From Candidatus Latescibacterota bacterium (GTDB lineage Bacteria > JAAXHH01 > JACQVL01), in the NCBI GenBank assembly GCA_016209865.1, contig JACQVL010000134.1, forward strand, positions 1 through 30,964: 30,964 bases of DNA, written 5' to 3'. Every line of letters begins with the position of its first letter. The stretch's first letter is position 1. Positions 1,722 to 30,964 of the stretch are shown here, piece after piece. The position numbers and the translations under genes are program-made. Below the pieces are notes generated by a model. That model was not told the DNA's origin. It ran no database searches and saw nothing but the letters and a program-made list of their open reading frames with translations.

Positions 1722-1749
1722 CGTCCTTTGTCCTTCATCCTTCGTCCTT
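1722..1749. repeat. Heptamer array, CGTCCTT family
   Basis: Four 7-bp units (CGTCCTT, TGTCCTT, CATCCTT, CGTCCTT), immediately downstream of the argF stop codon. They are the inverse of the array at 1547-1575. The rest of the 1645-1754 gap holds nothing else I recognise. Confidence 0.85.
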
Positions 1750-1754
1750 GCTTT

Positions 1755-2666: not shown

Positions 2667-2693
2667 ACAACTCCTCACAATGGGGATCGGGGG

Positions 2694-4070: not shown

Positions 4071-4116
4071 TTGTCACTCGTCACTGATTGTTACCGACCA
4101 CTGATCACTGACCACT
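4056..4116. repeat. Two heptamer arrays upstream of the permease gene
   Basis: 4056-4083 holds four 7-bp units of the CTCGTCA/CTTGTCA family. 4096-4116 holds three units of a second family (GACCACT, GATCACT, GACCACT). Together they fill nearly all of the hslU-permease gap, and the first array runs into the permease reading frame. Confidence 0.9.
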
Positions 4117-4119
4117 GTA

Positions 4120-5472: not shown

Positions 5473-5489
5473 GCGAGACTCTCTGCAGC

Positions 5490-6038
5490 TTATCGCCGGA
5501 TGGGAAGTTCTTCGATCGTGAGATGGTCGTTCGTGAACACGCAGATCGCGGCGGCGATCCGGAGCGATTCCTCGACGATCGTGCGAGCGTCGAGCGTGGA
5601 ATGCTTGAGGAGCGCCCGTGCGGCAGCCAGGGCGTACGGCCCGCCCGACCCGACGGCCACGATCCCGTCGTCTGGCTCGATGATATCGCCCGTCCCTGAG
5701 ATGATGAACGAGTGCTGGGCATCGAGGACGACCAGCAGCGCCTCGAGCCGGCGCAGGTACCGGTCCGACCGCCAGTCTTTGGCGAACTCGACGACCGACC
5801 GCAGCAGGTTGCCGTGGAATTCATCGAGCTTCGTCTCGAACCGGGTGAACAACGCGAGGCCGTCCGCGGCCGCACCCGCAAACCCGGCGAGGAGCTGGTC
5901 ACCATACATCCGCCGGACTTTGTTGGCGTTGTGCTTCATCACGGTGTCACCGAACGAGACCTGCCCATCTCCCCCCAGGACGACTTTTTTCTTATCCCGG
6001 AGTCCGATGATCGTCGTGGAATGCCTGTGCTGGGACAT
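5490..6038 (-). CDS. hslV: HslV, peptidase subunit of the HslVU protease
   Basis: Threonine peptidase of the bacterial proteasome-like HslVU complex. The 182-residue protein contains TTIIGL, so the catalytic N-terminal Thr is probably Thr8, exposed after removal of a seven-residue propeptide (MSQHRHS). Family motifs [14 protein letters not shown] and [17 protein letters not shown] are present, as is [14 protein letters not shown]. An AGAGGA ribosome binding site precedes the ATG. It lies between xerC and hslU, the classic xerC-hslV-hslU order. Confidence 0.97.
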
Positions 6039-6048
6039 ACAAATCCTC

Positions 6049-6954
6049 TCACGCCCTCGGATGCGCTTTCTCGTAGGTCCGCTTCAAACGATCCAGGGCG
6101 ACATGGGTGTAGACTTGCGTCGTGGACAGCCGTTCATGGCCCAACAGTTCCTTGACGGCCATCAGGTCTGCTCCGGCGTCGAGCAGGTGCGTGGCGACGC
6201 TGTGCCGGAGGGTGTGCGGGCTGAGGTGCGCCTGGCCGAGACGCGCGCCATAGTGCGCCAGGATCGTCTGAACGCCCCGCGCAGTCAGGCGTCGGCCCGT
6301 GGAATTCACGAATAACGCCGACTCTGGTGGCGGAGGAGCGCCAGCCCGGTGGCGGAGGACCGGCCGCCAGACGAGGTACGCCCGAAGCGCCGCCAGCGCC
6401 TGACTGCCCAGCGGCACGATGCGTTCCTTGTCCCCCTTGCCCCGGACACGGACCCGCTCCCCCGTCTCGTCGATGGCGCGGACGTCGAGGCTCACCAGTT
6501 CCCCCACACGCATGCCCGTGCTGTACAGGAGCTCGAGCATCGCCGCATCCCGGATACCGAGCGGCCGGGTTCGGTCCGGCAGTGCCAGGAGCGTCTCGAC
6601 CTGCGTCCGGTCGAGGAAACGGGGAAGCCGCCGGTCGCATTTCGGGGTGGCCAGGTACAACGCCGGGTTGGCCGACAGGAGACCTTCGCGGCAGAGGTAA
6701 TGAAGCCAGGACCGCAGCGCGGCAAACCGCCTTGCGATCGTGCGCTTCGCATACCCCCGCTGGTGGAGGGCGCCGAGAAACCCCCGGATGACCGATTTAT
6801 CGATCCGATCCGGAGCCACCTCTTCCGTCCCGGCCTGCGACCGGACAAACCGGGCAAACTGGTCGAGGTCACGCGCGTACGCGACGATGGTGTGGGGAGA
6901 AAAATTCCGTTCCTCCCTCAGATGTCCGAGAAACCGTCCGATGAGGTCGGTCAT
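6049..6954 (-). CDS. xerC: Tyrosine recombinase, XerC/D type
   Basis: Site-specific recombinase that would resolve chromosome dimers at dif. The 301-residue protein has an N-terminal SAM-like core-binding domain ([19 protein letters not shown]) and a catalytic domain with all expected residues: Arg149 (STGMRVGEL), Lys173 ([10 protein letters not shown]), His247 and Arg250 (HTLRH), His273 (LGHERLS) and nucleophile Tyr282 (VYTHV). I placed the start at the ATG at 6954, which gives normal length and clears topA; a longer frame back to 7158 would overlap the topA 3' end. XerC and XerD are hard to tell apart by eye; the hslVU neighbourhood favours xerC. Confidence 0.92.
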
Positions 6955-7009
6955 ACTGCGGACTCCCGTCGCGCAAGGTGTGCTCTTCCGCGACGTATGG
7001 ACGGGATGG

Positions 7010-9286
7010 TTAGGCCGAGAGCGGGTGTGACGAGGCCTTACGCCGTTTCCGTGGTGCCGGAGTGGTCGCCTGACCGTCGAGCCGATGGCCGCAACGGGGA
7101 CACTGGAGGGCCGTCGTCCCCGATTTATCCGTCTTCTCAACCATGATCGTACTCCCACACGCCGTGCAGGCGGCCGCGACGGGGGTATCCCAGACGACGA
7201 ACTTGCAGGCCGGATACTTGCTGCACCCGTAGAACGTGCGCCCTTTCTGTGACCGGCGACGAGTCAGGTATCCTCCGCAATCCTTCTCTGGGCAGGCAAT
7301 CCCCAGGCTGATCGGACGGGTGCGCTGACATTTCGGGTACGCGGCGCAGGCGAGGAACGGCCCGAACCGTCCCCGCTTCACGACCATCGGCGACCCGCAC
7401 CGGTCGCACACCTCCTCCGTCTGAGGCGACTCGCGCTCCTCGGCGAGCGGCCGGGCATTCCGGCAGGCTGGATACCCGGAGCAGGCGAGGAACCGGCCGT
7501 TCCTGCCCCACCGAATGACCATCGGCTTGCCGCACTTCTCGCAGACCTCGGTCGTGGTCTCCGTCAGCGTCTCTTTCAACTCAGACCGCTGCGCGTTGAC
7601 CTCCTGGAGGCGGACGCTAAACGGCCGGTAGAACTCGTTCAGGGCGCCCACCCAGTCGAGTTCTCCCGTCTCGATGCGGTCGAGCGCATCCTCCATCCGG
7701 GCCGTGAAGGCCACGTCGAAGATGTCGGGAAACGCTCTGACGAGGAGCTGGTTGACCGCCGTCCCCAGGTCGGTGGCGGAGAAGCGGCCATGTCTCATCG
7801 TCACGTACTTGCGGAGCCGCAAGGTGCTGATGATCTGGGCATACGTGCTCGGCCGCCCGATCTGTTTCGCTTCGAGCTCCTTCACGAGCGTGGCTTCCGT
7901 GTACCGGGGCGGCGGCTGCGTAAAATGCTGCTTGGGCACCAGGTCGATCAGAGACAACCGCTCTCCATCCCGCAGCGGCGGGAGGGGACTCTCCTCCTCC
8001 CGCTCCGCGTCTTCATCCGCGACTTCTTCGTACACCTTGAGGAACCCCGCGAAACGCGGAATCGAGCCGGTTGCTCGGAAGAGGTACTGGTCCGCCCTCA
8101 CGTCGACGGTCGTCACGTCGAACACCGCGGGCATCATCTGGGAGGCGACAAACCGGCACCAGATCAGCTCATACAGACGGTATTGATCGTGGGTGAGATG
8201 CGGCTTGATGTCTTGTGGAAGCCGCTGGACGGACGTCGGACGGATGGCCTCGTGTGCGTCCTGCGCCCCGGCTTTGGCCTTGAAGACACGCGGTTTCGGG
8301 GGCAGGTACGCCTTGCCGTACTGGCGGGAGATGTACGTCCGGACCGCGGCGACCGCTTCGTCCGAGACGCGGGCGGAGTCGGTCCGCATGTACGTGATCA
8401 GTCCGGTACTGCCCTCATCGCCCAATTCTAGCCCTTCGTAGAGCTGCTGGGCGATCAGCATCGTCTTCTGGGCGGAGAACCGGAGCCGCCGGGCCGCATC
8501 CTGCTGGAGGGTGCTCGTGATGAACGGCGGGAACGGCTGGCGCTGCGTCTCTTTCGTCTGCACGCTCTCGACGAAGAACGGCCGGGGCCGGATGTCTTCG
8601 ACGAGCGCGCGTGCGGTCTGCTCGTCCGGAATCCGCACCCTGTCCTGGTCGATCTTGAGGAGCTTAACAGAGAAGGGACCGCCCTGTTCCCCCTGGACGA
8701 CCGCGGTGATCGACCAGTATTCTTCCGACACAAAGACGGCGATCTCCGCCTCGCGCTCACAGATCAGCCGCAGGGCGACGGACTGGACGCGTCCCGCGCT
8801 CAGGCCGCCCGCGATCATCTTCCAGAGAAACGGGCTGACCTGGTATCCGACGAGCCGGTCCATCACCCGGCGGGCCTGCTGAGCGTTGACTTTCATCAGA
8901 TCGATCGGCAGCGGGTTCTTGATGGCCGACCTGACCGCCTGCTCGGTGATCTCGTGGAAGAGGACGCGGCCGACATCCCGCCCCTGCTCGCCGAGTTGGC
9001 TGGCGACATGCCAGGCGATCGCTTCCCCCTCCCGGTCCGGGTCGGTCGCCAGGTAGACCCGGTCCGCCCCTTGCGCCGCGCCCCGCAGGTCGCGCAGGAT
9101 TTTTTCTTTCCCACGAATCGTGACGTATTCCGGGGCAAAATTCTGCCGGATATCGACGCCGAGGCCCTTCGGCGGGAGGTCCCGAACATGCCCGATCGAC
9201 GCCTTGATCTCGAAGTCCTGTCCTAAAAATTTTTTAATCGTTTTGGCCTTGGCCGGTGATTCGACGATGACGAGTGATTTTGGCAT
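7010..9286 (-). CDS. topA: DNA topoisomerase I (type IA)
   Basis: Relaxes negatively supercoiled DNA. The 758-residue protein has an N-terminal Toprim domain (Glu9 in VIVESPAKAKTI; TDPDREGE at 81-88) and the active-site Tyr299 in GLITYMRTDS. Four cysteine-rich C-terminal modules begin near residue 585 (CEKCGKPM, CDRCGSPM, CPEKDCGG, CTACGS). The first three are typical topoisomerase zinc ribbons; the fourth is more divergent. In many bacteria topA lies next to xerC-hslVU and to smg/dprA, as here; trmFO, which often sits between topA and xerC, is absent. Confidence 0.97.
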   Translation of the reverse strand: MPKSLVIVESPAKAKTIKKFLGQDFEIKASIGHVRDLPPKGLGVDIRQNFAPEYVTIRGKEKILRDLRGAAQGADRVYLATDPDREGEAIAWHVASQLGEQGRDVGRVLFHEITEQAVRSAIKNPLPIDLMKVNAQQARRVMDRLVGYQVSPFLWKMIAGGLSAGRVQSVALRLICEREAEIAVFVSEEYWSITAVVQGEQGGPFSVKLLKIDQDRVRIPDEQTARALVEDIRPRPFFVESVQTKETQRQPFPPFITSTLQQDAARRLRFSAQKTMLIAQQLYEGLELGDEGSTGLITYMRTDSARVSDEAVAAVRTYISRQYGKAYLPPKPRVFKAKAGAQDAHEAIRPTSVQRLPQDIKPHLTHDQYRLYELIWCRFVASQMMPAVFDVTTVDVRADQYLFRATGSIPRFAGFLKVYEEVADEDAEREEESPLPPLRDGERLSLIDLVPKQHFTQPPPRYTEATLVKELEAKQIGRPSTYAQIISTLRLRKYVTMRHGRFSATDLGTAVNQLLVRAFPDIFDVAFTARMEDALDRIETGELDWVGALNEFYRPFSVRLQEVNAQRSELKETLTETTTEVCEKCGKPMVIRWGRNGRFLACSGYPACRNARPLAEERESPQTEEVCDRCGSPMVVKRGRFGPFLACAAYPKCQRTRPISLGIACPEKDCGGYLTRRRSQKGRTFYGCSKYPACKFVVWDTPVAAACTACGSTIMVEKTDKSGTTALQCPRCGHRLDGQATTPAPRKRRKASSHPLSA

Positions 9287-9366
9287 AACCCTTCAGGTGG
9301 ATGAGTGAGTGGATATGTTCTTAGGTTGACGAACACATCCGGTCATGGGATGATGGAACGACTGTA

Positions 9367-9388
9367 GGGGCGTAGCGTGCTGCGCCCC
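9367..9388. repeat. GGGGCG/CGCCCC palindrome
   Basis: The arms GGGGCG and CGCCCC enclose a 10-nt centre and can form a stem between smg and topA. It resembles the palindrome at 22315-22340. There is no T-run on the transcribed side, so I call it a repeat, not a terminator. Confidence 0.5.
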
Positions 9389-9391
9389 CCC

Positions 9392-9871
9392 TCAATTCAC
9401 GGGGATATTCCTCTCCCCACCGTACCACGGCAAATTCTGGTGCGACCGTTCCGTCACGTCGAAATCGAGCAGGATGGACGCGGCGATCGCCTTGATATCA
9501 TCCTGGGTCACATGGCGCGAGCCGGTCAGCATCGCGCGTTCGATGATCATCTCTGTCTGGACGTCGTCGATCAGCCCCAATTCACGCAATTGAATGATGT
9601 ACCCGTAGGCTTCCGGACTGATGACCAGTCGTTCGATCGTATGCAGCACCCGGTTCGGTCTCGGGTGCAGCGGCGGCATCTGGCCGGCCAGTTCTTCGGA
9701 TTGCGCTTGCAACCGCTCGAACAACCAGGTGAACGCAGTGTTTACTTCATGTTGAGTGTAGCCGTGACCGATCAGCGTCTGTGACACGTGGCCGATGTCG
9801 TCGAATTGTCCATGTTCCTCCTGGATCTGTTTCATCAAATAGACGAGAATTTCCATCACTTTCTCGTGCAT
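9392..9871 (-). CDS. smg: Smg-family (DUF494) protein
   Basis: A 159-residue protein of the Smg/DUF494 family. The N-terminus MHEKVMEILVYLMKQI is characteristic, followed by a helical middle with GYTQHEVNTAFTWLFERL and a C-terminal LILDF-like stretch (AASILLDFDVTE). The biochemical role is not established. The family is commonly encoded beside dprA or topA, and here it lies just upstream of topA, which supports the call. GAGGAG lies 8 nt before the ATG. Confidence 0.88.
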   Translation of the reverse strand: MHEKVMEILVYLMKQIQEEHGQFDDIGHVSQTLIGHGYTQHEVNTAFTWLFERLQAQSEELAGQMPPLHPRPNRVLHTIERLVISPEAYGYIIQLRELGLIDDVQTEMIIERAMLTGSRHVTQDDIKAIAASILLDFDVTERSHQNLPWYGGERNIPVN

Positions 9872-9991
9872 GTCCCGCGCTCCTCACTCCGGTGGACACT
9901 CTCGCTGACGACGAGCGGTGAGCATACCCTCAACCCTTTCACGGTCTTATCTTGTGCAATGTACACGTCTCCTCTGTGAAACGCAAGCGCT

Positions 9992-11014
9992 TTATTCTTC
10001 CTCAAACACCTTCCCGATCTCATCCCGCTGGAACACCGGCAGGTCGGAGATCGTACCAGCCCGCCGGATCTTGAACCCGAACTCGGCGGGCATGATCGTC
10101 CCGATACGGGTGGCCGGAATCCCGTCCGCAGCGAGCCGGCTGATCATGGCCGGCGCCGCCTCCGGGACGACCGTCAACACCAGCGCGCCGGACGCGATCG
10201 TCCCGAGCGGGTCGAGGCCGTACACCGCGCAGAGCGCCGCCGACTCAGGCAGGACCGGAATCTGATCATCCTCGCACAGCACGCCAACCCCCGCCGCCGC
10301 GCCGATCTCGCGCAGCCCGGTGGCCAGCCCGCCCTCCGTCGGGTCGTGCATCGCATGCACCCCGCCCGTCTCGACCGCGATCCGGGCTTCCCGCACGACG
10401 CTCAGGCCGGGGTCGGTGAGGTAATCACGGCATCGCTGCAACAACTCGTCAGGGAACCGTCCGCGGAGGTCCTCCGCCTTCTCCCGCGCGATCAGCGCTG
10501 TGGCTTCGATGGCGATGCCTTTCGTGAGCAGGATCGCGTCGCCGACACGAGCGCCGGACGTGGTCACGAGCCGGTCGACAGCGGCCTCGCCCAGCATCTG
10601 CCCGACGAGGATCGGCCGGGTGAGTCCATACGTGATCTCGGTGTGGCCGCCACATAAGGTGATGCCCAGCTCGTCACACGCCTCAGACAGTCCGGCGAAA
10701 ATACACTCGACCAGCTCCACCGTCGTCCCGTCGTCTGGCAGGAGGACGGTCGCTAAAAACCACCGGGGGATCGCGCCCATGACGGCCAGGTCGTTCGCGT
10801 TGATGTGGACGGCATACCATCCGATGCGGTCTGTGGCGAAGGTGATGGGGTCGGTCTTGGCGACCAGAGCCGTCGAACCGAACGCGATCGCCGCCGCATC
10901 CCGTCCGATGCCTGGACCGACGAGCACGCGGGGATCCGTCGTGCGGGCGTACCGGCTGAGCAGCCGTTCGAGTTCAGCAGCCGGGAGTTTGCCGATCGGG
11001 AAACGCTCAGCCAT
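9992..11014 (-). CDS. AIR synthase-related / HypE-like protein
   Basis: A 340-residue ATP-binding protein of the PurM/ThiL/SelD/HypE superfamily. It has the N-terminal phosphate-binding motif in a variant form (GPGIGRDAAAI, with Arg where Asp is common), NDLAVMGAIPRWFL, GGHTEIT and the C-terminal-domain motif DPTEGGLATGLREIG. It lacks the Cys-ending C-terminal tail of hydrogenase-maturation HypE and the N-terminal Cys/Sec-Lys motif of SelD, so neither function is assigned. It starts 9 nt after the HU gene stop, and that gene follows the BMC shell genes by 31 nt. It may therefore be transcribed with the BMC operon, but a role there is unproven. Confidence 0.75.
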   Translation of the reverse strand: MAERFPIGKLPAAELERLLSRYARTTDPRVLVGPGIGRDAAAIAFGSTALVAKTDPITFATDRIGWYAVHINANDLAVMGAIPRWFLATVLLPDDGTTVELVECIFAGLSEACDELGITLCGGHTEITYGLTRPILVGQMLGEAAVDRLVTTSGARVGDAILLTKGIAIEATALIAREKAEDLRGRFPDELLQRCRDYLTDPGLSVVREARIAVETGGVHAMHDPTEGGLATGLREIGAAAGVGVLCEDDQIPVLPESAALCAVYGLDPLGTIASGALVLTVVPEAAPAMISRLAADGIPATRIGTIMPAEFGFKIRRAGTISDLPVFQRDEIGKVFEEE

Positions 11015-11023
11015 GTGTGACGG

Positions 11024-11326
11024 TCACCCCGATGGCTGGCGTTGGGCGCGCAACGCTTCCTTGAGAATCTTCCCTGGCTTGAACCGGGCTTTCCGCCGGG
11101 CGGGGACCTGGATGCGCTCCCCGGTTCGCGGGTTCCGCGCGGCCGGCTTGGGCCTGGTATCCTTCACTTCCAGCGCGCCAAAGCCCCTGATTTCTATCCG
11201 ATTGCCGTCGACGAGGTTTTCCCGCATCACATCGAACAGGCTGTCGATGACCGGACAGACCTGCGACTTTTTGATCCCGAGCGCTTCGCTGATTTCGTTC
11301 ACCAGATCGTTTCGCGTTGTGGTCAT
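11024..11326 (-). CDS. HU/IHF-family DNA-binding protein
   Basis: A 100-residue histone-like protein that bends DNA. It shows the HU fold sequence (LVNEISEALGIKKSQV), the arm region (IEIRGFGALEVKDTRP) and the DNA-contacting RNPRTGERIQVPARR with the conserved proline, then FKPGKILKEAL. A strong AGGAGG ribosome binding site lies 5 nt upstream. It sits 31 nt downstream of the last BMC-P gene and 9 nt upstream of the AIR-synthase-like gene. An HU gene in this place is unusual and could be chance adjacency. Confidence 0.93.
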   Translation of the reverse strand: MTTTRNDLVNEISEALGIKKSQVCPVIDSLFDVMRENLVDGNRIEIRGFGALEVKDTRPKPAARNPRTGERIQVPARRKARFKPGKILKEALRAQRQPSG

Positions 11327-11357
11327 GCTCCCTCCTGACCGAGCAGACTCTGGGGCA

Positions 11358-11630
11358 TTACTCGACAGACTGAATCGTATCGATAATCCCGACGATCAGG
11401 GATCGGACCGGCCCGTTGCTGTCGCCGAGGATCTCACGGGCAGCCCTTCCTTCGGTCGAGACGAGTACGGTCTCACCGATGCCGGCCCCGATCGTGTCTA
11501 CCGCGACCATCGTGTAGCCCTGCGGCGCGCCGGCCGGGTCGAGCGGCTGGACGAGCAGGATTTTCTTGCCGTGGTAGACGGGATGTTTAATCGTGGAAAC
11601 CAGGTTGCCGACGACACGACCGATGACCAT
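11358..11630 (-). CDS. BMC-P (EutN/CcmL) shell vertex protein, copy 3
   Basis: A 90-residue pentameric shell protein that caps microcompartment vertices. It has the family start MVIGRVVGNLVSTIKHP, KILLVQPLD, and the signature VAVDTIGAGIGETVLV, ending in IVGIIDTIQ. It is the third of three BMC-P genes in the locus, consistent with loci in which several vertex proteins coexist. A short heptamer array separates it from the preceding BMC-P gene. Confidence 0.95.
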   Translation of the reverse strand: MVIGRVVGNLVSTIKHPVYHGKKILLVQPLDPAGAPQGYTMVAVDTIGAGIGETVLVSTEGRAAREILGDSNGPVRSLIVGIIDTIQSVE

Positions 11631-11641
11631 GCGCTATTCCA

Positions 11642-11655
11642 TTTTAGATTTTGGA
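11642..11655. repeat. Short heptamer array, TTTTAGA/TTTTGGA
   Basis: Two 7-bp units between BMC-P copies 2 and 3, in the reverse sense of the array at 11969-11996, so the two bracket BMC-P copy 2. Confidence 0.6.
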
Positions 11656-11674
11656 TGAACATCCATCCGATCAT

Positions 11675-11953
11675 CTACAATCCAGAGTTGTTCGTATTCA
11701 CCTTATCTACGATTCCCACGATCGACGCATCGGACGGAATCACCCGTCCCTGAATCGCCAGGGTCGCCTCCGCTCCGCCGACCCAGAAGACCGTCTCGCC
11801 TTCCCCGGCCCCGACAGAATCGACCACGATGATGGGCGTGCCGGCCGGCTTCCGGTGATGGTTGAGGGGCTGCATCACGAACAGCGTGACTCCGGTCAAC
11901 GTGGGCGTCTTCGCCGTCGCCCAGACTTTCCCGATGATGTGACCAAGCCGCAT
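11675..11953 (-). CDS. BMC-P (EutN/CcmL) shell vertex protein, copy 2
   Basis: A 92-residue vertex protein: MRLGHIIGKVWATAKTP, LFVMQPLN, then VVDSVGAGEGETVFWV and IVGIVDKV. I set the start at the ATG at 11953, preceded by GGGAG at 5 nt. The frame stays open to 12007, but the extra residues (MKRFWILDFGFWID) are only the translation of a heptamer repeat and are not part of the family. The sequence differs clearly from the other two BMC-P copies, so they are not recent duplicates. Confidence 0.94.
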   Translation of the reverse strand: MRLGHIIGKVWATAKTPTLTGVTLFVMQPLNHHRKPAGTPIIVVDSVGAGEGETVFWVGGAEATLAIQGRVIPSDASIVGIVDKVNTNNSGL

Positions 11954-11968
11954 ACCCACTCCCGTATC

Positions 11969-11996
11969 AATCCAAAATCCAAAATCTAAAATCCAA
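11969..11996. repeat. Heptamer array, AATCCAA family
   Basis: Four 7-bp units (AATCCAA twice, AATCTAA, AATCCAA) between the small BMC-linked gene and BMC-P copy 2, just upstream of the latter's ribosome binding site. Confidence 0.88.
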
Positions 11997-12003
11997 AATC
12001 GTT

Positions 12004-12276
12004 TCACTCACTCCCTATCCGAATAGCAATCCCCTTCTCCTTCGCCGTGTCCCGCGCGAGCGGAGTGATCAGCGACCCGACTGGCACGTCGAGGGTGGAT
12101 CGCCCGGCGGCGGCGGCGTCCAGCACCATCCGGGCAGTCACGACGCGCCGCTTCCCCTTCTCCGTCATCGGACGTGACGCCGGTGCCGCGGGAGTCGTCC
12201 CCTGAATCACGCCCTGCCGGACGAGTTCTTCGACAACCGTCTTGACGATGAGGGTGATGAGGCGTTCGAGGTCCAC
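12004..12276 (-). CDS. Small BMC-associated protein with N-terminal encapsulation-like helix
   Basis: A 90-residue protein starting with GTG, with AGAGGAG 4 nt upstream. Residues 3-22 (LERLITLIVKTVVEELVRQG) form an amphipathic helix like those that target enzymes into microcompartments, and resemble the N-terminus of the dehydrogenase encoded just upstream. A Pro/Ala linker follows, then a compact domain with VVTARMVLDAAAAG and VGSLITPLARDTAKEKGI. I recall similar short segments in other BMC-linked proteins but cannot name the family or a reaction with confidence. It could be a lumen scaffold or core-assembly factor. It starts 9 nt after the dehydrogenase gene ends. Confidence 0.75.
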   Translation of the reverse strand: MDLERLITLIVKTVVEELVRQGVIQGTTPAAPASRPMTEKGKRRVVTARMVLDAAAAGRSTLDVPVGSLITPLARDTAKEKGIAIRIGSE

Positions 12277-12285
12277 GTAACTCCT

Positions 12286-13722
12286 CTACACAATCCGGAA
12301 ACTATCCACCAGCACGCACCGCCGGGGCCGGGTGTAGGTGCGCGGGGTCGTCGGCCCCTCGCCAGTCGGGCTGGCGATCGTCCAGCAAGTCGGCCCCTCG
12401 CCCCCGAAGCCGAGTCCGGCGTACGACGGTCCGTTCTTCACGAAGATCGTCGTGTTGATCGACCGGGCCATTTTACTCAGTTTCTCGATGTTCCGGGAGT
12501 GCATGACGGCCGTGTGGCCGCAGCCCTGCTCGACTTCTTTGGCGAACTGGATGGCCTCGTCGGCGTCACGCACCCGGACGAGAGGAATGACCGGCATCAT
12601 CTGCTCTTTCCAGACGAGCGGGTGGTCTTTCGGCGTCTCGACGAGGATCAGACGGATGTCGTCCGGCGCGGTGATGCCGAGCGCGCTGAGGATCGTCCTG
12701 GCCTCCTGGCCGACGAATTTCCGGTTGAGCACGGCATCCTTGCACCCGACGCCCCGCCACCGGTCGAAGATCACATCCAGGAGAGCATCCACTTTCGACC
12801 CGGCCAGCTCATACGTCTTGTAGGCTTTCATGTGCCGCTTCAGATCATCCGCCACAGCATCGACGACGATAATCTCTTTCTCGGAGGTGCAGCAGATGTT
12901 GTTGTCCACACTCGCCCCATCGACGATCGACTGGGCTGCCTTCACCAGGTCCGCCGTCTCATCGACGACGACGGGCGGGTTGCCCGGCCCGGCGGCGATC
13001 ACCTTCTTGCCGCTGCTCATCGCCGCCTTCACGACGCCGCCCCCGCCGGTGACGACGAGCAGCCGGATGCGCGGGTCTTTCATCAGGACGCCCGCCGTGT
13101 CGAGCGTCGGGTCGGTCACGCCCGTGAGCAGATTATCGGGGCCTCCGGCCCGGACGATCGCCTGGTTGACGAGTTCGACCGCTTTCATCGTCACCCGTTT
13201 TGCCAACGGATGGGCGTTGAACACGACCGCGTTACCGGCGGCGATCATACAGATGCCGTTGTTAATGACCGTCTCCGACGGGTTGGTCATCGGCGTGATC
13301 GACCCGATCACCCCGTACGGGGCGAGCTCCGTCACGGTCAGCCCGTGATCGCCCGTCACCGCGTCCGGTCTCAGGTCTTCCAGTCCCGGCGTCTTCTCCG
13401 CGGCGACCCGGTTCTTCTTGATCTTATCCTGCCAGTTGCCGATCTTCGTCTCCTCGGCCGCCATCTTGGCGAGCAGCTCCAGGTTGTCTAAGATCGCCTG
13501 CCGCATCCCTTCGATCATCGTCGCGCGGAGTTCCAGCTTCGTCTCCTGGAGCTGATGGAACGCCGTCTGCGCCGCCGCGATGGCGTCCTCGATCGCGGTA
13601 AACTGGCCGTATTGCCCGCCCGTCTGGCCGTGTGACGGCGGAGCCGGTCTGCCCGCCTGGAGGCCCAGTTCAGCGATCACCTGCTGGACGATCGCCTGAA
13701 TCTGACGTTCATCGATGTTCAC
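12286..13722 (-). CDS. CoA-acylating aldehyde dehydrogenase, BMC type (PduP-like)
   Basis: Oxidises an aldehyde, here probably lactaldehyde, to an acyl-CoA with NAD+ inside the microcompartment. The 478-residue length fits PduP/EutE-type enzymes. Residues 1-20 are an amphipathic encapsulation peptide (QIQAIVQQVIAELG), then a Gly/Pro linker. The catalytic domain has PYGVIGSITPMTNPSE, VVTGGGGVVKAA, and the active-site motif DNNICCTSEKE, with Cys278 the likely nucleophile by alignment to the PduP DNNxxCxxEKE pattern. Cys277 beside it is unusual. It starts with GTG behind a G-rich ribosome binding site. The propanal versus lactaldehyde preference cannot be read from sequence; the linked class II aldolase suggests lactaldehyde. 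Confidence 0.94.
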   Translation of the reverse strand: MNIDERQIQAIVQQVIAELGLQAGRPAPPSHGQTGGQYGQFTAIEDAIAAAQTAFHQLQETKLELRATMIEGMRQAILDNLELLAKMAAEETKIGNWQDKIKKNRVAAEKTPGLEDLRPDAVTGDHGLTVTELAPYGVIGSITPMTNPSETVINNGICMIAAGNAVVFNAHPLAKRVTMKAVELVNQAIVRAGGPDNLLTGVTDPTLDTAGVLMKDPRIRLLVVTGGGGVVKAAMSSGKKVIAAGPGNPPVVVDETADLVKAAQSIVDGASVDNNICCTSEKEIIVVDAVADDLKRHMKAYKTYELAGSKVDALLDVIFDRWRGVGCKDAVLNRKFVGQEARTILSALGITAPDDIRLILVETPKDHPLVWKEQMMPVIPLVRVRDADEAIQFAKEVEQGCGHTAVMHSRNIEKLSKMARSINTTIFVKNGPSYAGLGFGGEGPTCWTIASPTGEGPTTPRTYTRPRRCVLVDSFRIV

Positions 13723-13754
13723 GAATTTCCCCCCTCATCCGACTGCATAGAGCG

Positions 13755-13836
13755 TTCACCACAAAGACACAAAGAGCACAAAGAGATCAAAAGTTCTTTC
13801 ATCATTTCTTGGTGTCCTTTGTGTCTTTGTGGTGAA
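13755..13836. repeat. Perfect 20-bp inverted repeat (CACAAAGA type)
   Basis: The arms 13755-13774 (TTCACCACAAAGACACAAAG) and 13817-13836 are exact reverse complements, with a 42-nt loop that itself contains a further CACAAAG copy. It occupies most of the gap between BMC-P copy 1 and the dehydrogenase gene. The motif is of a kind seen between genes in many unrelated bacteria. The RNA would form a stable hairpin in the shell/enzyme transcript. Confidence 0.92.
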
Positions 13837-13851
13837 TATGTTTGACCGCCC

Positions 13852-14163
13852 TCACCCCATTGTCCACCGCTCGTCTGACTTGCGGTACCGGATCGTCCCC
13901 TCCACCTCGATGGAGTCGATGATGGCGATGATCGACGCATCGACCGGCACGCCGCCCATCCCTTCCGCCTGTCGAGCCGAGCTCCCGCGGACGACGATGA
14001 CCGTCTCCCCGACGCCCGCGCCGATGGTGTCCAGGGCGACGACGTGCGCTCCGGTCGGCTTGCCCTCCAGCGTCAGTAGGCTGACGATCAGCAGTTTATA
14101 CCCCGCAAGCCGTTCGTTCTTCTGCGTCGCCACGACGGTGCCGGTGACTCGACCCAGATCCAT
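13852..14163 (-). CDS. BMC-P (EutN/CcmL) shell vertex protein, copy 1
   Basis: A 103-residue vertex protein with MDLGRVTGTVVATQKN, LLIVSLLTLEGKPTG, VALDTIGAGVGETVIVV and ASIIAIIDSIEV. It carries a short charged C-terminal extension (about residues 90-103) not seen in the other two copies. I use the ATG at 14163; a GTG four codons upstream (14175) is possible, but family members begin at MDLG-like sequences. A palindrome lies immediately upstream. Confidence 0.94.
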   Translation of the reverse strand: MDLGRVTGTVVATQKNERLAGYKLLIVSLLTLEGKPTGAHVVALDTIGAGVGETVIVVRGSSARQAEGMGGVPVDASIIAIIDSIEVEGTIRYRKSDERWTMG

Positions 14164-14175
14164 GGTATCCCCCAC

Positions 14176-14194
14176 GTAAGGGCGAAGCCCTTAC
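14176..14194. repeat. Palindrome GTAAGGGC-GAA-GCCCTTAC
   Basis: A perfect 8-bp inverted repeat with a 3-nt loop, in the gap between BMC-H and BMC-P copy 1. It lacks a T-run on the transcribed side. It could be a processing or attenuation hairpin, or a dispersed palindromic repeat. Confidence 0.7.
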
Positions 14195-14200
14195 AACGTG

Positions 14201-14467
14201 TCAACGCAATAAGACATCCTCCACATCCGTGTGCGGCCTGGGGATGACGTGGGTGGAGACGACCTCGCCGACCCGCTTGGCGGCGGCCGCGCCCGCGTCC
14301 ACTGCCGCTTTCACGGCCGCCACTTCCCCCCGGCAGAGGATGGTCACGTACCCGCCGCCGATCTTCTCACACTTGATGAGCTTCACGTCTGCGGCCTTCG
14401 CCATCGCGTCCGCCGCCTCGACGACCCCGATAAACCCTTTGGTCTCGACCATTCCGAGTGCTTCCAT
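14201..14467 (-). CDS. BMC-H shell hexamer protein
   Basis: An 88-residue major shell protein that forms the hexagonal facets. It begins [20 protein letters not shown], has the pore-region motif KIGGGYVTI, and ends [18 protein letters not shown] place the start at the ATG at 14467 (AAAGGA 6 nt upstream); 16 further residues back to 14515 are possible but not family-like. This is the only hexamer gene in the window, and there is no BMC-T. Either this protein makes all facets or other hexamer genes lie elsewhere. Confidence 0.96.
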
Positions 14468-14484
14468 GCGCCGTCCTTTCTCTG

Positions 14485-15231
14485 TTACACCCTCGCCCTC
14501 ACGGTATCCCCGCACTTGAGACCCGCCGCGTTCGCGTCGTCCGTGTCGAGGTGCATGATGAGTTTGAATCCCTCGTTGATCCGAACCCGGACATTGTGGA
14601 AGATCAGACCGGAGATGCCGGGGACTTCGACTGTGATACGTTGACCTTCCCGGACGCCGTACCGACGGGCGTCCCCAGACGAGATGTGGATGTGCCGGTC
14701 GGGCCGGATGACCCCTTCCTTGAGGTCGAGTGAGCCGGCAGGCCCGATGATCGTGATGGGCGCTGCTCCGGCGACGTCTCCGGACGCGCGGACGGGAAGG
14801 GAGAGGCCCAGAAAAACCCCGTCCGTCGGGGCGAGTTCGACCTGCGTGTGCGACCGCGTCGGCCCCAGGATGCGCACCCCTTGCAGCGCCCGGAGGTTCG
14901 GCCCGACGAGTGTCACCGTCTCCTGCGCCGCGAATTCGCCCGGCTGGAGGAGGTCACGGAGCGGGGTCAGCCGGTGGCCTTTGCCGAACAGCGTCTCCAG
15001 GTCTTCGTCCGTGATGTGGAGATGGCGAGCCGACACGCCGACCTGCACGTCGAAGCCCCGATGGGTTGTCGTCGTACCGTTCCCGTTCAGGACACGTAGG
15101 ACGGTCTCCCGCACGATCGTCCGGATGCGGTCTTCATCCGTCTGTCGCGCATCCGCCTCGCACAACCGGCAGTCCGCGCACTGTGAGCACGCGTGCGGAC
15201 GGAAGAGCAGAGCGTCGGGTGTGGCGATCAC
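14485..15231 (-). CDS. pduL: PduL-type phosphotransacylase with N-terminal Cys cluster
   Basis: Converts acyl-CoA, here probably lactyl- or propanoyl-CoA, to acyl-phosphate and recycles CoA inside the compartment. From the GTG at 15231 (GGAG 5 nt upstream) it has 248 residues. Both PduL half-domains are present with likely metal ligands His70/His72 (SARHLHIT) and His180/His182 (DRHIHIS), plus [14 protein letters not shown] near the end. Residues 33-50 ([18 protein letters not shown]) look like an encapsulation helix. Before it lies [10 protein letters not shown] (15-24), a CxxCxxCxxC cluster that I do not associate with PduL. A TTG ten codons upstream (15261) is an alternative start but lies in a repeat array. 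BMC-H follows after 17 nt. Confidence 0.93.
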
Positions 15232-15246
15232 AGGGGCTCCAAAGGT

Positions 15247-15267
15247 AGTGACGAACGACAAGTGACA
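15247..15267. repeat. Heptamer array upstream of pduL
   Basis: Three 7-bp units (AGTGACG, AACGACA, AGTGACA), the reverse complement of the CTCGTCA family, between the mazF stop and the pduL start. Confidence 0.75.
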
Positions 15268-15276
15268 AAGACAAGC

Positions 15277-15624
15277 TTATAATCCAAGACAATACCGCAC
15301 AGCACGTTCAATCTTCTCCAGTGTCGCATCGGTAACTTTGCCCGCTGATTGCTCAGGAAATCGCTGAGGATCTATGGATCGAATCTGAAAACATAGGAAT
15401 ACCGTTTCCATTGGCAGTCCGCTGTCTGCTGGAGAAACACGAACATTGGTTGGATAGTCACGAGTAACGTTTTCACCCTTTGTTCCGATCACCACTGTAA
15501 CGACAAGCGGCAACTTATTGATGGCATCTATGGACAACGCTAAGACTGGACGGGTACCTGCTTGTTCTTTTCCTTCAACAGGATTCAAGTTTACGAAATA
15601 AATCTCTCCGCGATGGATGGCCAT
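15277..15624 (-). CDS. MazF/PemK-family toxin
   Basis: A 115-residue probable sequence-specific mRNA endonuclease toxin. It shows the fold's opening IHRGEIYFVNLNPVEGKEQAGTRPVLALS (given here only as RGEIYFVNLNPVEG and GTRPVLALS), then VVIGTKG and PADSGLPMETVFLCFQIRSID. Its ATG overlaps the antitoxin stop codon by one base (TAATG), the usual coupling of a toxin-antitoxin pair. Base composition is visibly more AT-rich than the flanking BMC genes, and the pair interrupts the BMC operon, so I infer later insertion. Confidence 0.9.
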   Translation of the reverse strand: MAIHRGEIYFVNLNPVEGKEQAGTRPVLALSIDAINKLPLVVTVVIGTKGENVTRDYPTNVRVSPADSGLPMETVFLCFQIRSIDPQRFPEQSAGKVTDATLEKIERAVRYCLGL

Positions 15625-15860
15625 TACGTTTTCTCCAGTCCATCCATTTCTGTCGGAGCAAATTCTTGTTCTATCTTGCGCAATTCGTTCCGGATTTCTG
15701 GATCGGCTGCCATCGCGACAAGCTGACTCTCTATAAGGTTCTGCTCTTCCATCATGCTGTTCCGTAGTCGATGAGCGAGTCGCTCAATTAACCCTAATTG
15801 TTCGTCGTAGGATAGTTGATTGATTTTATCCTCGATCTCTGACAATGTTGACGAATTCAT
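15624..15860 (-). CDS. Antitoxin of the MazF-type pair
   Basis: A 78-residue small protein rich in Glu, Leu and Gln, with LSYDEQLGLIERLAHRLR near the N-terminus. Similar segments occur in small antitoxins that precede MazF-family toxins. It has no recognisable MazE AbrB-type DNA-binding domain, so how it regulates its promoter is unclear. A strong GGAGGAGGAG ribosome binding site precedes the ATG. It is called mainly from position, size and the overlap with the toxin gene. Confidence 0.72.
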   Translation of the reverse strand: MNSSTLSEIEDKINQLSYDEQLGLIERLAHRLRNSMMEEQNLIESQLVAMAADPEIRNELRKIEQEFAPTEMDGLEKT

Positions 15861-26493: not shown

Positions 26494-26521
26494 ATAATAT
26501 ACAGGTATTTCTTCCTGTCAA
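26494..26521 (-). promoter_or_regulatory. Sigma-70-type promoter for nrnA
   Basis: Minus strand: TTGACA (26521-26516), 16-bp spacer, TATTAT (26499-26494), in an AT-rich stretch about 55 nt upstream of the nrnA ATG. Confidence 0.65.
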
Positions 26522-26621
26522 GAGGTTGTCGTGATAGGGGAGGTCCTGCCGTGTGGGCGTTGCAGAGCGGACCGACCCCATGCGGCCCAGGTTCCGGAAG
26601 TGTCCCGATTCAATTTCTCGC

Positions 26622-26649
26622 TTGACATGCCGTGGGTTTCCTCTATTTT
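26622..26649 (+). promoter_or_regulatory. Sigma-70-type promoter for the outer-membrane gene pair
   Basis: TTGACA (26622-26627), 16-bp spacer, TATTTT (26644-26649). It would give a leader of about 135 nt before the ATG at 26790. It is divergent from the nrnA promoter. The rest of 26530-26789 holds no gene I can support. Confidence 0.6.
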
Positions 26650-26789
26650 TGTCCTAACAGGCTCACTCGCTGTATGCCTATCCGGTTCTGCCTGGCGGTG
26701 GGCAGACAGGGGTCGTCGAATCCTCCATTTGGTCATCTTCCGTAGTTCCTACTTCTGCATTCATCACCTTCTCACAAGGTGGCCTCACG

Positions 26790-29183
26790 ATGCCAACACG
26801 ATTCTTCGTGTCTGTGTCTTTCCAAGTCATCGTCGTCTGCCTTACCGCCCGATGTCTTGCTCAAGAGATCACGAAGGACAACTATCTGAAATATGTGCCC
26901 CTGTCTTCCCCACCCATTCTCTGTCAGACTGAGGCGAGCCGGGACCTGTGTCTGTATGGGAATGAACAAGACACGAGTTCCTACAAGGACGGCAATTTGG
27001 ATGGCATCGATGACAGCCGGTATCAACGATTGAAAGAACTCTGCGTCAAATTTTCGCCCATCCTGTTTAAGAACGATTATATGATCCCATTGAATTTCAG
27101 GGCCTTCATCAAGGATGGTGTGACACCGCTTCTGTACAGTGACACATGGGATCTGACGCGGGCTGAGCACAGAGTCATCACACGAGAGACCATCAATCTT
27201 GCCTTAGCTGACCCTCTCGAAGACGTGAAACTCCTGCACTTGATTCGGGAAACCCATCCTGACAGTTTGAGAACTGCTAAGGTTCAGCCAACCCACCAGA
27301 CCCTGAAGGTGCTCTATTTTGACTTCCCCGGCGAAGACGAAACAACCTGGAAACAAGCCTACCATAACATCATTTCTAAGGATCTTCAGAGAAGCTATCA
27401 AGAGTACTCCATGATCTATGCCCATCCTTTTATTCATGAACCCCAACCGGACAACAAGGGCAAGCGGGGGTATGAATTCGTCATCCAATACTGGTTCTTT
27501 TATCCCTTCAACGATGGCGCCAATAACCATGAAGGGGATTGGGAGCATCTCAACGTCATCGTGACCTCGAAGATGAAAGCCGATTCCCTGTTGTCACAAG
27601 AAGAGGTCTGGAGCCTGTTGCAGGTGGACGGCTACACGGACATGATCCCGGACTCCTCATGGGTCATAAAACGTGTCGAATACTATTTTCATCAGCTTGT
27701 CACGATCTGGGATTATACGAGGCCGAATGTGTACCTGGACGCTCAGCGATGGAAAGCCGAGGTTGAGAGAAGCCGTCCCGAACGGAAGGAGGAGCAACGG
27801 AAATGGGAATGGGTGCGGGCCAGGGCTTTTCAAGATGACGGGACGATCAACACCCATCCGATAGGGTATATTGCCGGTGACAATAAAGGCTTCAACCAGT
27901 TGCTCGCTCTGCCGGGAGGGAAAAATCGTGATTCTCACGGTACCTATCCGATACCCGGCATCTACAAAGGGGTTGGCGCTATCGGCGCTACGGAACAGAT
28001 TCATGGAAGCTTAAATTACCGCCAGGGTCTGCAACGGCGTTCCCAGTTTGTCTCCTACACGGACGACCAGATTGAGCTCGTCCCGGACTGGGAACGAGTG
28101 AAAGATTTGGTCCTGCAATCTCCGCAAGCCCGACGGAACTGGAGCTGGCTGATTTTGCCTGTTCGCTGGGGGTTTCCGGCGACTGCGTCTCCGGGGGCTG
28201 GGATCGTCCCGAACGCAGATACGGGCAACCTGGGTATTGTAGGACCGGCCTACCAAACGGCCTGGAACCGGGTCGGGGCGTGCGACCGCTTCGCGCTCTA
28301 CGATCCGCACATCTTTAGTTCTGCCTTCCCCATGAGTCCTGTAGACAATTTTTCGAATCGATGGGGATTTTTGAACGCGACTCTCCCGACCGTCTTGAGC
28401 TTACCGACCTATAATTACCTGTGGGGATTTCTCATCAAACCATTAGTCGTCGACCGGTTTGACCCACCCCCCTTATTCATCTCTGAAGACATCATCCCGT
28501 TTCGGCGTGTGGGGTTTGTTTTTGGTGTCTCCCCATCGTTTGAAGATGATGCGTTCGCTCTTCTGTTACACAACGAGCGTCTCCGCCAATTTATCCAAGC
28601 GTATAACCTGGTGCGTCGTCTCGAAAACCGGTGGACCCTCTCTTATTATGGTCAACTCAACTTTTATCTTGGACGAAGGTTGGCGAGCGAAAACCTGTTT
28701 CGTGTTGCCCAGAGTACCGTGAGATATAGTCTGACTCAACCTCCCAAAGTCTTAGCCAGTTTCGAGGGTGACCTCCGGTTGATCGAGCTTTCGGGGAGTT
28801 TGCGGTATAATTTCCTGCCGGAACGGTTTCAACCGTTTCTCAAAAGCGGATACGGCTATACCATCTACAAGGTACGTTCGGCACGTCCTCTCATCACCGG
28901 GACATTGGATCAGGTTGACCCAGCCACGATAGAGGGACTGGTTGATCGATCTGCAACCGCGTGGTTTCATCATCCCAAATTCTGGCCTCCGCAGCGATGG
29001 TGGCCGAATACGTGGCACTTTGGGTTCGGCTTGGAGTTCTTGCCGGTTAAAAGTTATACGAGTGGGCACATGGGCGCTAAGCTTGAGTACGAATTGTACG
29101 TGCACCGGCTGGGGAGGGAGACACCGGAAAACGCGACCGTTGCACGACAATATCTCAACCTCGCGCTGACGTTCGGGTTTTGA
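26790..29183 (+). CDS. Secreted protein: Vps62-like domain plus C-terminal outer-membrane barrel-like region
   Basis: A 797-residue protein with a signal peptide cleaved near Ala24 (VVCLTARCLA). A possible calcium loop follows (DGNLDGIDD, 68-75). Residues about 80-400 contain QYWFFYPFND (233-242), NHEGDWEH (246-253) and DSHGTYP (381-387). These recall the Vps62/plant DUF946 family, where similar Trp-, Gly-Asp-Trp-Glu- and Ser-His-rich motifs recur. From about residue 570 the pattern becomes alternating, aromatic beta strands (WTLSYYGQLNFYLGRRL, FQPFLKSGYGYTIYKV) and the chain ends in Phe797 (LNLALTFGF), the hallmark of BamA-folded barrels. Its function is unknown. Base composition is less GC-rich than the BMC genes. 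The next gene begins 54 nt later. Confidence 0.7.
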   Translation: MPTRFFVSVSFQVIVVCLTARCLAQEITKDNYLKYVPLSSPPILCQTEASRDLCLYGNEQDTSSYKDGNLDGIDDSRYQRLKELCVKFSPILFKNDYMIPLNFRAFIKDGVTPLLYSDTWDLTRAEHRVITRETINLALADPLEDVKLLHLIRETHPDSLRTAKVQPTHQTLKVLYFDFPGEDETTWKQAYHNIISKDLQRSYQEYSMIYAHPFIHEPQPDNKGKRGYEFVIQYWFFYPFNDGANNHEGDWEHLNVIVTSKMKADSLLSQEEVWSLLQVDGYTDMIPDSSWVIKRVEYYFHQLVTIWDYTRPNVYLDAQRWKAEVERSRPERKEEQRKWEWVRARAFQDDGTINTHPIGYIAGDNKGFNQLLALPGGKNRDSHGTYPIPGIYKGVGAIGATEQIHGSLNYRQGLQRRSQFVSYTDDQIELVPDWERVKDLVLQSPQARRNWSWLILPVRWGFPATASPGAGIVPNADTGNLGIVGPAYQTAWNRVGACDRFALYDPHIFSSAFPMSPVDNFSNRWGFLNATLPTVLSLPTYNYLWGFLIKPLVVDRFDPPPLFISEDIIPFRRVGFVFGVSPSFEDDAFALLLHNERLRQFIQAYNLVRRLENRWTLSYYGQLNFYLGRRLASENLFRVAQSTVRYSLTQPPKVLASFEGDLRLIELSGSLRYNFLPERFQPFLKSGYGYTIYKVRSARPLITGTLDQVDPATIEGLVDRSATAWFHHPKFWPPQRWWPNTWHFGFGLEFLPVKSYTSGHMGAKLEYELYVHRLGRETPENATVARQYLNLALTFGF

Positions 29184-29237
29184 GGAGGGCGTGAATTCAC
29201 TGTCGGCAAGCTCTGACATGAGAGATGGTCATCGCCT

Positions 29238-30964
29238 ATGCATCTGTTATCGACTGACATGTTTCGGAATGTTCTGCTTCTCACCGTCGCCTTTTCTCTT
29301 TCTTATATGAATGTATGGGCTGAAATGTTAGAAGGGGACACTTACAGTCACAACGACCTGATCATTCAGACCGCCGATAAGGTCACGGTACGGGGGAGTC
29401 TGTTTGACCGCGATCATGAGAAAGTCATCATCTACTGCCATCGACTCCTCGGTTCTCAAAGCGAGGAAGAGGTACAGCAGCTCTTGGAGGCATTTATTGA
29501 CGAGTATGACCTGATCACGTTCAATTTCAGAGGGCATCAATCCAGCGCCTGGATGAGTACGATGGGTGGAGATGAAGTGCTTGACCTTCGTGCGGTCATC
29601 TCTTTTGCGGTGAAGAAGGGGTACGGCAAAATCGTGGTTCTCGGAGCCGGCATGGGGGGGAGTGTCGCGATTCGGACTGCAGGGATATTCCGGAATATCG
29701 ATGCGCTTATTGTGGTGAGCCCTTCGGGGTTTTCAGTCGAGCTCCAACCCTTTTTGGTGAGAATGGGTTCCGATATCATGCTCGATACAGAATTCGGCAG
29801 GGTATCGTTAAGGATGCTGACGAATACGCGGCTTGGGACAAGATATACCGCCGGCTACCCGATCGACATCATCGACACAGTTTCTCCTATTCCCCTTGCA
29901 GTCGTTCAATCGGAGAATGACCGATTCGTAAAATTAAACAAAATACGCGACGCGTTCGATCGTGCCCTGGAGCCCAAAAAATTCATCCTTGTCCCCGGCA
30001 GCCTGCACGCCGATAAACTGCTTGTCAAAAGCACATTGAGCGAGATTCGGCATTGGCTGAACGGCGTTTTCCCCGAGGAGAAATCTAAAGAGAGTTCCTC
30101 GTTGGAGGGAAGTCCGGTTACCGACCATCCAGACTCTATCCGGATCGTTCTGACTGGCGATCTACCAATACCAGAAGAGGTGATAGTAGGCGACTTTTAT
30201 GAAAGGCTGTACGGGCCTGCAAGGACTTCCTACAAAACCAAAATGAATGCGGAAAGTATAGTCGACAATTTAAAAAATGTGTTTTCTTTTTACGGCTACA
30301 CGGTCGTTTCATTAACCCTCTCTGATTCGGTCCCCTTTTTCAACATCCGAGTCTCGATCCCTCACATCCATTCTGTATCAATTGAAGGGAACCAGTGGGT
30401 CACAGATGATGATATACGGCACTTCCTGACAATCGATGGGGACTACTATAATGCATACGAACTTGACAGAGCCATCAGGCGGGTCTCCTCCCAACCATCG
30501 ATTCAAACCGTTACAGTCGGTAGTACGATGAGGGAGGACGGGACAGTCGACCTGCATGTGAACGTTGTCGAGAAAAGGCCGTACAGGCTGCTTCTTGCCG
30601 CCAAATTCACAGACTTAGGCCAATTCTACGGCACAGGCTTCACCTGGAATGAGTTTAATCCTTCCGGAGTACAGTTGGCGGGGCAGGCGATGGTTGGGGT
30701 GGGTGACCGTAACGTGTATACGAGCTTGGGCGCAACCGGAAGCGTTTGGGGTCATCACATGCGGCTGGGTGGAAAATATTTCGACGTGATTAAAAGTCGG
30801 GACGACCTGGACTACATCTACACCCGTCAGGAGGTTCATGAGAGAGGGGGAGAGGTCACAGCCAGTTATCGGGTGACGTCTACGATCACCGCCAACCTTG
30901 GCGTATTCGGGAAAGAATATAAATCGCCCGAGGCTCGTTCTGACTTTCTTGTGCAGGAGGGGAC
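29238..30964 (+). CDS. Alpha/beta-hydrolase-like domain fused to POTRA and Omp85-type barrel, 3' end outside window
   Basis: The frame is open from the ATG at 29238 to the edge (575 codons seen); an ATG at 29259 is also possible and gives a shorter signal peptide (MFRNVLLLTVAFSLSYMNVWA spans 21 residues, ending at Ala28). Residues about 40-285 look like an alpha/beta hydrolase: FNFRGHQSS (95-103), then GAGMGGSVAI (136-145) where G-x-S-x-G is expected, an acid at Asp228 (SENDRFV) and His257 (GSLHAD). The nucleophile position is Gly138. Residues about 300-374 and 377-446 look like two POTRA domains, the second IHSVSIEGNQWVTDDDIRHF. From 450 on, barrel strands begin (RPYRLLLAAKFTDLG, GVQLAGQAMVGVGD). 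The layout parallels type Vd patatin-POTRA-barrel proteins such as PlpD, with a different passenger. Confidence 0.72.
   Translation, partial: MHLLSTDMFRNVLLLTVAFSLSYMNVWAEMLEGDTYSHNDLIIQTADKVTVRGSLFDRDHEKVIIYCHRLLGSQSEEEVQQLLEAFIDEYDLITFNFRGHQSSAWMSTMGGDEVLDLRAVISFAVKKGYGKIVVLGAGMGGSVAIRTAGIFRNIDALIVVSPSGFSVELQPFLVRMGSDIMLDTEFGRVSLRMLTNTRLGTRYTAGYPIDIIDTVSPIPLAVVQSENDRFVKLNKIRDAFDRALEPKKFILVPGSLHADKLLVKSTLSEIRHWLNGVFPEEKSKESSSLEGSPVTDHPDSIRIVLTGDLPIPEEVIVGDFYERLYGPARTSYKTKMNAESIVDNLKNVFSFYGYTVVSLTLSDSVPFFNIRVSIPHIHSVSIEGNQWVTDDDIRHFLTIDGDYYNAYELDRAIRRVSSQPSIQTVTVGSTMREDGTVDLHVNVVEKRPYRLLLAAKFTDLGQFYGTGFTWNEFNPSGVQLAGQAMVGVGDRNVYTSLGATGSVWGHHMRLGGKYFDVIKSRDDLDYIYTRQEVHERGGEVTASYRVTSTITANLGVFGKEYKSPEARSDFLVQEG

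Follow-up and report, generated by a model that had tools for sequence, protein, structure and literature searches.

Omp85 proteins have long been viewed as devices for the assembly or translocation of proteins. Ten bacterial Omp85/TpsB subfamilies were distinguished by Heinz and Lithgow (2014), and assembly or translocation is regarded as the usual job of an Omp85 protein (PMC4104836). WD40-Omp85 and Metallo-Omp85 in the same work are precedents for an Omp85 barrel that carries a non-POTRA domain at its N-terminus. The type Vd proteins PlpD and FplA unite a signal peptide, a hydrolytic-type fold (patatin), POTRA and an Omp85 barrel in one chain. The patatin domain of the prototype PlpD stays in the periplasm, PlpD forms dimers, and deletion of plpD alters phospholipid levels; Omp85 barrels are therefore usable for other purposes (PMC11116518).

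The protein family described here shares this gross plan with PlpD and FplA, and its N-terminal domain is, by analogy, likely to be periplasmic as well. In contrast to those proteins, it carries an alpha/beta-hydrolase fold in place of patatin, has lost the catalytic serine, and possesses two POTRA-type units. WD40-Omp85 and Metallo-Omp85 differ from it in their N-terminal folds and in being described as without POTRA in that position. The original prediction that a non-patatin alpha/beta-hydrolase, POTRA and an Omp85 barrel are encoded by one gene, in an arrangement not yet described, is upheld: the word hydrolase is absent from the main text of PMC4104836, and open-literature searches on Omp85 together with abhydrolase or hydrolase fold, in which subscription papers and preprints are thinly covered, returned no description of the architecture. 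The hydrolase-fold–POTRA–Omp85 architecture, which belongs to the Omp85 superfamily, is provisionally regarded as so far undescribed.

The window gene and its parts

The window, that is, the whole stretch of DNA analysed, is the complete contig C80 (30964 bp) of draft genome G000, which is 83% complete and comprises 356 contigs. Its last gene is a single open frame of 575 aa at 29238-30962 on the forward strand, without a stop codon. Because the window is the entire contig and the frame runs off its end, the gene is truncated at its 3' end. The following parts were assigned.

29238-30962, forward strand: pseudo-alpha/beta-hydrolase–POTRA–Omp85 fusion gene as predicted, 575 codons, 3' end cut by the contig end (open frame; full-length relatives L076, L077 and L122)
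29238-29321, forward strand: signal peptide, residues 1-28 (RNVLLLTVAFSLSYMNVWAE), from the sequence, with a hydrophobic helix (helix 2-26 in the L076 model)
29346-30077, forward strand: alpha/beta-hydrolase fold domain, residues 37-280, predicted to be catalytically dead (Pfam, phmmer against the PDB, AF2 model with Foldseek and VIA-align)
29439-29444, forward strand: H68-R69, where the 'HG' oxyanion motif has decayed through a change of Gly to Arg (all 28 standalone relatives keep G; the four fused proteins have R, R, R and P)
29649-29651, forward strand: Gly138 (GGC), which occupies the site of the GxSxG nucleophile serine, within GAGMGG (Ser in 28/28 standalone, Gly in 4/4 fused)
29919-29921, forward strand: Asp228, acid of the former triad, retained (invariant in the alignments)
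30006-30008, forward strand: His257, histidine of the former triad, retained (Arg in L077; from the alignments)
30078-30131, forward strand: linker that evolves fast, residues 281-298 (the relatives share 6-45% identity here versus 47-72% in the N-terminal domain)
30135-30353, forward strand: first POTRA-type unit, residues 300-372, on weaker evidence (profile alignment into BamA POTRA4; beta-alpha-alpha in the model)
30360-30575, forward strand: second POTRA, residues 375-446 (PF07244, E 3.4e-5, over the cut-off)
30576-30962, forward strand: start of the barrel of Omp85/BamA type, residues 447-575 (TIGR03303; family profile-profile E 2.1e-15), the remainder lying past the contig end

An orphan Omp85 C-terminus at the start of contig C267 of the same genome (L022, positions 1-126) was considered as the missing 3' end and rejected, because the relatives end in GWEIHVL, GWGIHVL or GWGTHVL and not in GIRNEF; it is the tail of another Omp85 gene.

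Full-length relatives and distribution

A contig scan of genomes with the window protein as the lone query gave no match. With a small alignment of the window protein and three standalone hydrolases as the query, a scan in which each species was represented by one genome recovered two relatives of full length: L076 (JALGZP010000028.1, 'bacterium isolate M3-30_Bin_374'), which is 63% identical to the window protein over residues 1-575 by tblastn, and L077 (JABHBL010000020.1, Candidatus Neomarinimicrobiota SI036_bin79), which is 42% identical by tblastn. A third, L122 (L126 in genome G498), came to light when the phylum to which L077 belongs was searched. The fusion is present in 2 of 245 genomes of that phylum (Marinimicrobiota) and in one of the eight genomes of the L076 phylum. 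The complete relatives are 758, 762 and 767 aa long, their domain order is identical, and identity to L076 over the whole protein ranges from 46 to 64%, the window protein standing at 64%. Since three full-length relatives with the same domain order were found, the fusion is considered a genuine, rare and conserved protein. No further full-length member turned up in broad samples of 384 and of 386 genomes, which returned only standalone hydrolases and loci already found; plasmid and phage records gave one standalone hydrolase match, among the plasmids, and otherwise none. A search with the Omp85 half alone led to BamA proteins among the matches examined. The long open reading frames L003, L025 and L045, taken up as candidate members, proved to be other genes and were rejected.

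The possibility that a frameshift or an assembly error had joined two genes was raised together with the original prediction, and base composition gives it some ground. The last two genes of the window (26500-30964) have a GC content of ~0.51 versus ~0.6 elsewhere on the contig, GC3 falls from ~0.8 to 0.6, and the contig may be chimeric near 26.6 kb, a point outside the fusion gene. However, composition is constant within the fusion gene, and the same full-length fusion occurs in three independent genomes (L076, L077 and L122), which rules out a chimera inside the gene and leaves an artefact with a negligible probability. The conserved gene module described below likewise differs from its surroundings at L127, with a GC content of 0.49-0.51 versus 0.56-0.59. 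L122 and L077 share a phylum, yet the N-terminal domain of L122 is 72% identical to that of the window protein versus 52% to that of L077, and searches of the two phyla that include L076 and L077 did not return the window genome. The fusion seems to span three phyla or more, and horizontal transfer is likely.

An alpha/beta-hydrolase fold without its active site

The signal peptide (residues 1-28) and the alpha/beta-hydrolase-like domain that had been read from the sequence were both confirmed. Pfam alpha/beta-hydrolase families match residues 60-176 of the window protein with E-values of 4e-6 to 9e-5, slightly below their curated cut-offs (Hydrolase_4, 4e-6; Abhydrolase_1, 3e-5), and phmmer against the PDB found the Pyrococcus furiosus esterase Pf2001 (5g59) with an E-value of 5e-11. 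An AlphaFold (AF2) model was built on the 64% identical relative L076 from an alignment of 31 sequences. Its mean pLDDT is 61.9 overall, with ~75-97 over most of residues 31-270 in the N-terminal domain and ~45-67 around residues 151-200. Foldseek matched this model to Pf2001 with an E-value of 4e-14, and VIA-align superposed it on Pf2001 (Z 26.3, rmsd 3.0 over 223 residues) and on the thioesterase DcsB (Z 26.8). The canonical alpha/beta-hydrolase fold, whose absence from a structure prediction would have counted against the original proposal, is therefore present in the L076 model.

In the domain tree, a long branch leads to a single clade of the four fused proteins (support 1.0), and nearest to this clade are exported or glycosyltransferase-linked hydrolases, mostly from Omnitrophota. 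By sequence and fold, the closest relatives of the N-terminal domain are the exported alpha/beta-hydrolases of Omnitrophota and Gastranaerophilales together with Pf2001; these are standalone proteins (or attached to a glycosyltransferase) with Ser-Asp-His intact, which the fused proteins do not have. In the Omnitrophota loci L079, L080, L082, L083, L085, L086, L088 and L105, active hydrolase relatives are fused behind a sequence that by eye resembles a GT4-type glycosyltransferase, giving ~694 aa in total.

The motif GAGMGG had been taken as a hydrolase signature. It does mark the nucleophile elbow, and the surrounding region GxGMGGS is strongly conserved among the fused proteins, but the serine is absent from the elbow. 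All four fused proteins have Gly at the nucleophile position, where each of the 28 standalone relatives has Ser, and the oxyanion glycine of 'HG', kept in 28 of 28 standalone relatives, is replaced by Arg in three fused proteins and by Pro in the other. Neither the GxSxG nucleophile motif nor the HG oxyanion motif of serine esterases is thus retained, and further positions lost in the fused proteins include G101, F137, G225, L239 and E259. Asp228 is kept throughout, and His257 is kept in three of the four, with Arg in L077. A sequencing error is excluded as the cause of the missing site residues because four genomes share the changes. Judged by its sequence, the hydrolase domain is catalytically dead, and the earlier view of the passenger as an enzyme is contradicted by the loss of catalytic serine and oxyanion glycine in all members. 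Among the three closer members, the N-terminal domain has a dN/dS ratio of ~0.16-0.21, which does not exceed that of the POTRA or barrel parts, although at a dS of 0.8-1.4 these values are approximate and serve as a guide only. The dead domain is thus predicted to be a conserved pseudoenzyme under purifying selection, and since selection appears to maintain it, a role in binding may be proposed.

POTRA units and a BamA-type barrel

The two POTRA-like repeats and the start of a barrel in the original prediction were also recovered. The second POTRA (residues 375-446) matches PF07244 over the cut-off, with an E-value of 3.4e-5, so that at least one POTRA is present. The first (about residues 300-372) is weaker: the model shows a beta-alpha-alpha pattern there at middling confidence, and the alignment with BamA POTRA4 covers the C-terminal half of the unit. 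The BamA model TIGR03303 of NCBIfam matches residues 376-556 with an E-value of 8e-7, far below the curated cut-off of that model, and in the full-length relatives the BamA match extends through the whole barrel. A profile of the four fused proteins aligned with a profile of twelve BamA proteins over 408 columns, from POTRA4 through the barrel (prob 98.5, E 2.1e-15). An Omp85-type barrel as defined in PMC4104836 is present on this family profile, and just its first part lies inside the window.

POTRA4/5 and the whole barrel of BamA are thus homologous to the fused family (E 2e-15). BamA has five POTRA units, whereas the fused proteins have two POTRA-type units, the profile match beginning within BamA POTRA4, and the pseudo-hydrolase stands in place of the three N-terminal POTRAs. 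A usual Omp85 hallmark, outside the definition applied above, is the motif (V/I)RG(F/Y) in loop 6. At this site, which lies past the window end, the three complete relatives have LPGY, LPGY and LPAH versus (V/I)RG(F/Y) in BamA, and the Arg is lost. The AF2 models of the POTRA/barrel half, on which a count of the 16 strands of an Omp85 barrel would depend, are of low confidence, both in the full L076 model and for the C-terminal half alone, which was too poor for a structure search. In the structure search with the full L076 model, the hydrolase domain fills the matches listed and no Omp85 chain is among them, which is no argument against the barrel. The window genome also carries an ordinary BamA (L018).

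The proposed kinship with type Vd secretion does not hold in the strict sense. PF01734 (patatin) has no match in the window protein (P0001), L076 or L077 at E-values up to 1, whereas a gene neighbouring the fusion at L128 gives 3e-30 by the same test. The patatin Ser-Asp dyad is likewise lacking, the fold being a different one with its own nucleophile serine missing too. The barrel half aligns far better with BamA, over the 408 columns, than with the one patatin-Omp85 compared, that of L128, for which one POTRA alone aligns (E 0.017; a weak test with one sequence).

Gene neighbourhood of the fusion

A module of four genes is conserved in the three complete relatives, at L126 (G498, 6508-12061), L127 (G384, 10136-15729) and L128 (G385, 1072-6673). 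Downstream of the fusion lies a gene for a ~260-aa protein with a lipobox, with an 11-bp overlap that is identical in L126, L127 and L128. It is followed by a convergent pair encoding a ~295-aa exported protein, likely an outer-membrane protein, and a phosphodiesterase with a lipobox (PF01663, E 1e-26), with a 14-bp overlap in all three loci. The ~260-aa lipoprotein and the ~295-aa protein have no Pfam or NCBIfam match. Two genes lie directly upstream of the fusion in G498, one for a lipid kinase of the DAGK/YegS type and one for an exported protein with weak START-like similarity (PF03364, just under the cut-off). In G385 (Marinimicrobia), a patatin–POTRA–Omp85 gene of type Vd-like organisation (L128, 7063-9498) adjoins the module. 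Neither the module lipoprotein nor a complete phosphodiesterase of the module kind was found in the rest of the window genome, an 83% complete draft in which the contig ends at the fusion gene.

Proposed role and alternatives

In the reading that we favour, at close to an even chance, the fused protein would be a periplasmic, outer-membrane-anchored pseudo-hydrolase that binds an envelope ligand, most likely a lipid, non-catalytically and is coupled to the lipoprotein and the phosphodiesterase. The BamA-type barrel and the two POTRA-type units would hold the folded, non-catalytic hydrolase domain at the outer membrane, on its periplasmic side. POTRA units are, to our knowledge, periplasmic in all known Omp85 proteins, and because of this and of the analogy with PlpD, the hydrolase domain may be placed next to them in the periplasm. 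The old substrate pocket of this domain could bind, without cleaving it, either a partner protein or a ligand, for which an envelope lipid or acyl group is the likeliest candidate. The translationally coupled lipoprotein may be the partner of the fusion protein, and binding could, in concert with the phosphodiesterase, gate or scaffold an outer-membrane step, for example in lipid handling. Hints of a lipid, mostly from single genomes, come from the PF01663 phosphodiesterase, the lipid-kinase gene, the START-like protein, the patatin–POTRA–Omp85 neighbour and the PlpD precedent. It is a more speculative and rather unlikely extension that the pocket is a ligand-sensing or lipid-carrying site gating the barrel, and that the protein and its module form a horizontally spread outer-membrane machine for moving or modifying lipids.

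A somewhat unlikely but serious alternative is a BamA/TamA-like assembly or translocation factor, which would insert the outer-membrane protein of the module or bring its lipoproteins to the surface, with the dead hydrolase recognising the substrate. The homology of the C-terminal half to BamA POTRA4/5 and barrel speaks for such a factor, as does the usual job of Omp85 proteins (PMC4104836), and the module offers possible clients in one likely outer-membrane protein and two lipoproteins. On the other hand, the loss of the loop-6 Arg (LPGY/LPAH) could be a mark of an Omp85 protein that has given up assembling other proteins, and PlpD shows that Omp85 barrels have other uses (PMC11116518). An active enzyme in which the hydrolase fold employs a different nucleophile or a non-serine mechanism would account for the invariant Asp228, for His257 in three of four members and for the strongly conserved elbow. 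It is nevertheless improbable, as the nucleophile, the oxyanion glycine and several nearby pocket residues have changed together, the His is Arg in L077, and no conserved Cys or Ser occupies the nucleophile position, Ser142 probably lying one helix turn down, to judge from the fold. Least credible among these functional readings is a type Vd autotransporter in the original sense, whose barrel would export its own hydrolase-fold passenger to the surface, as the gross order of exported fold, POTRA and barrel in PlpD and FplA might suggest. Alpha/beta hydrolases fold fast into globular domains, unlike known autotransporter passengers. The passenger here is moreover non-catalytic and not a patatin, and self-translocation, a part of the original prediction, finds no argument for export in the sequence, while the domain of PlpD itself remains periplasmic (PMC11116518).

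A second, unrelated hydrolase fold on an Omp85 scaffold, conserved yet dead, would be independent evidence for the re-use of this scaffold for other work, which PlpD had suggested. A dead domain separates binding from catalysis, by which a receptor role of such N-terminal domains becomes testable, and the conserved four-gene module supplies concrete candidates for partners.

Other genes of the window genome

Upstream of the fusion gene, the forward strand of the window encodes a 797-aa protein (26790-29180) with a signal peptide, the motif NNHEGDWEHLNVIV and a barrel-like C-terminus ending in ...LTFGF; it has no Pfam, NCBIfam or PHROG match. The upstream protein P0002 was considered as a counterpart of the module lipoprotein, a likeness that was not supported on comparison. 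At the end of contig C345 of the same genome (L107, 875-1821), a gene that by eye resembles MlaC is followed by the start of a phosphodiesterase, which is 48% identical to the module enzyme over 82 aa and, at a GC content of 0.64-0.69, is perhaps a native paralogue.
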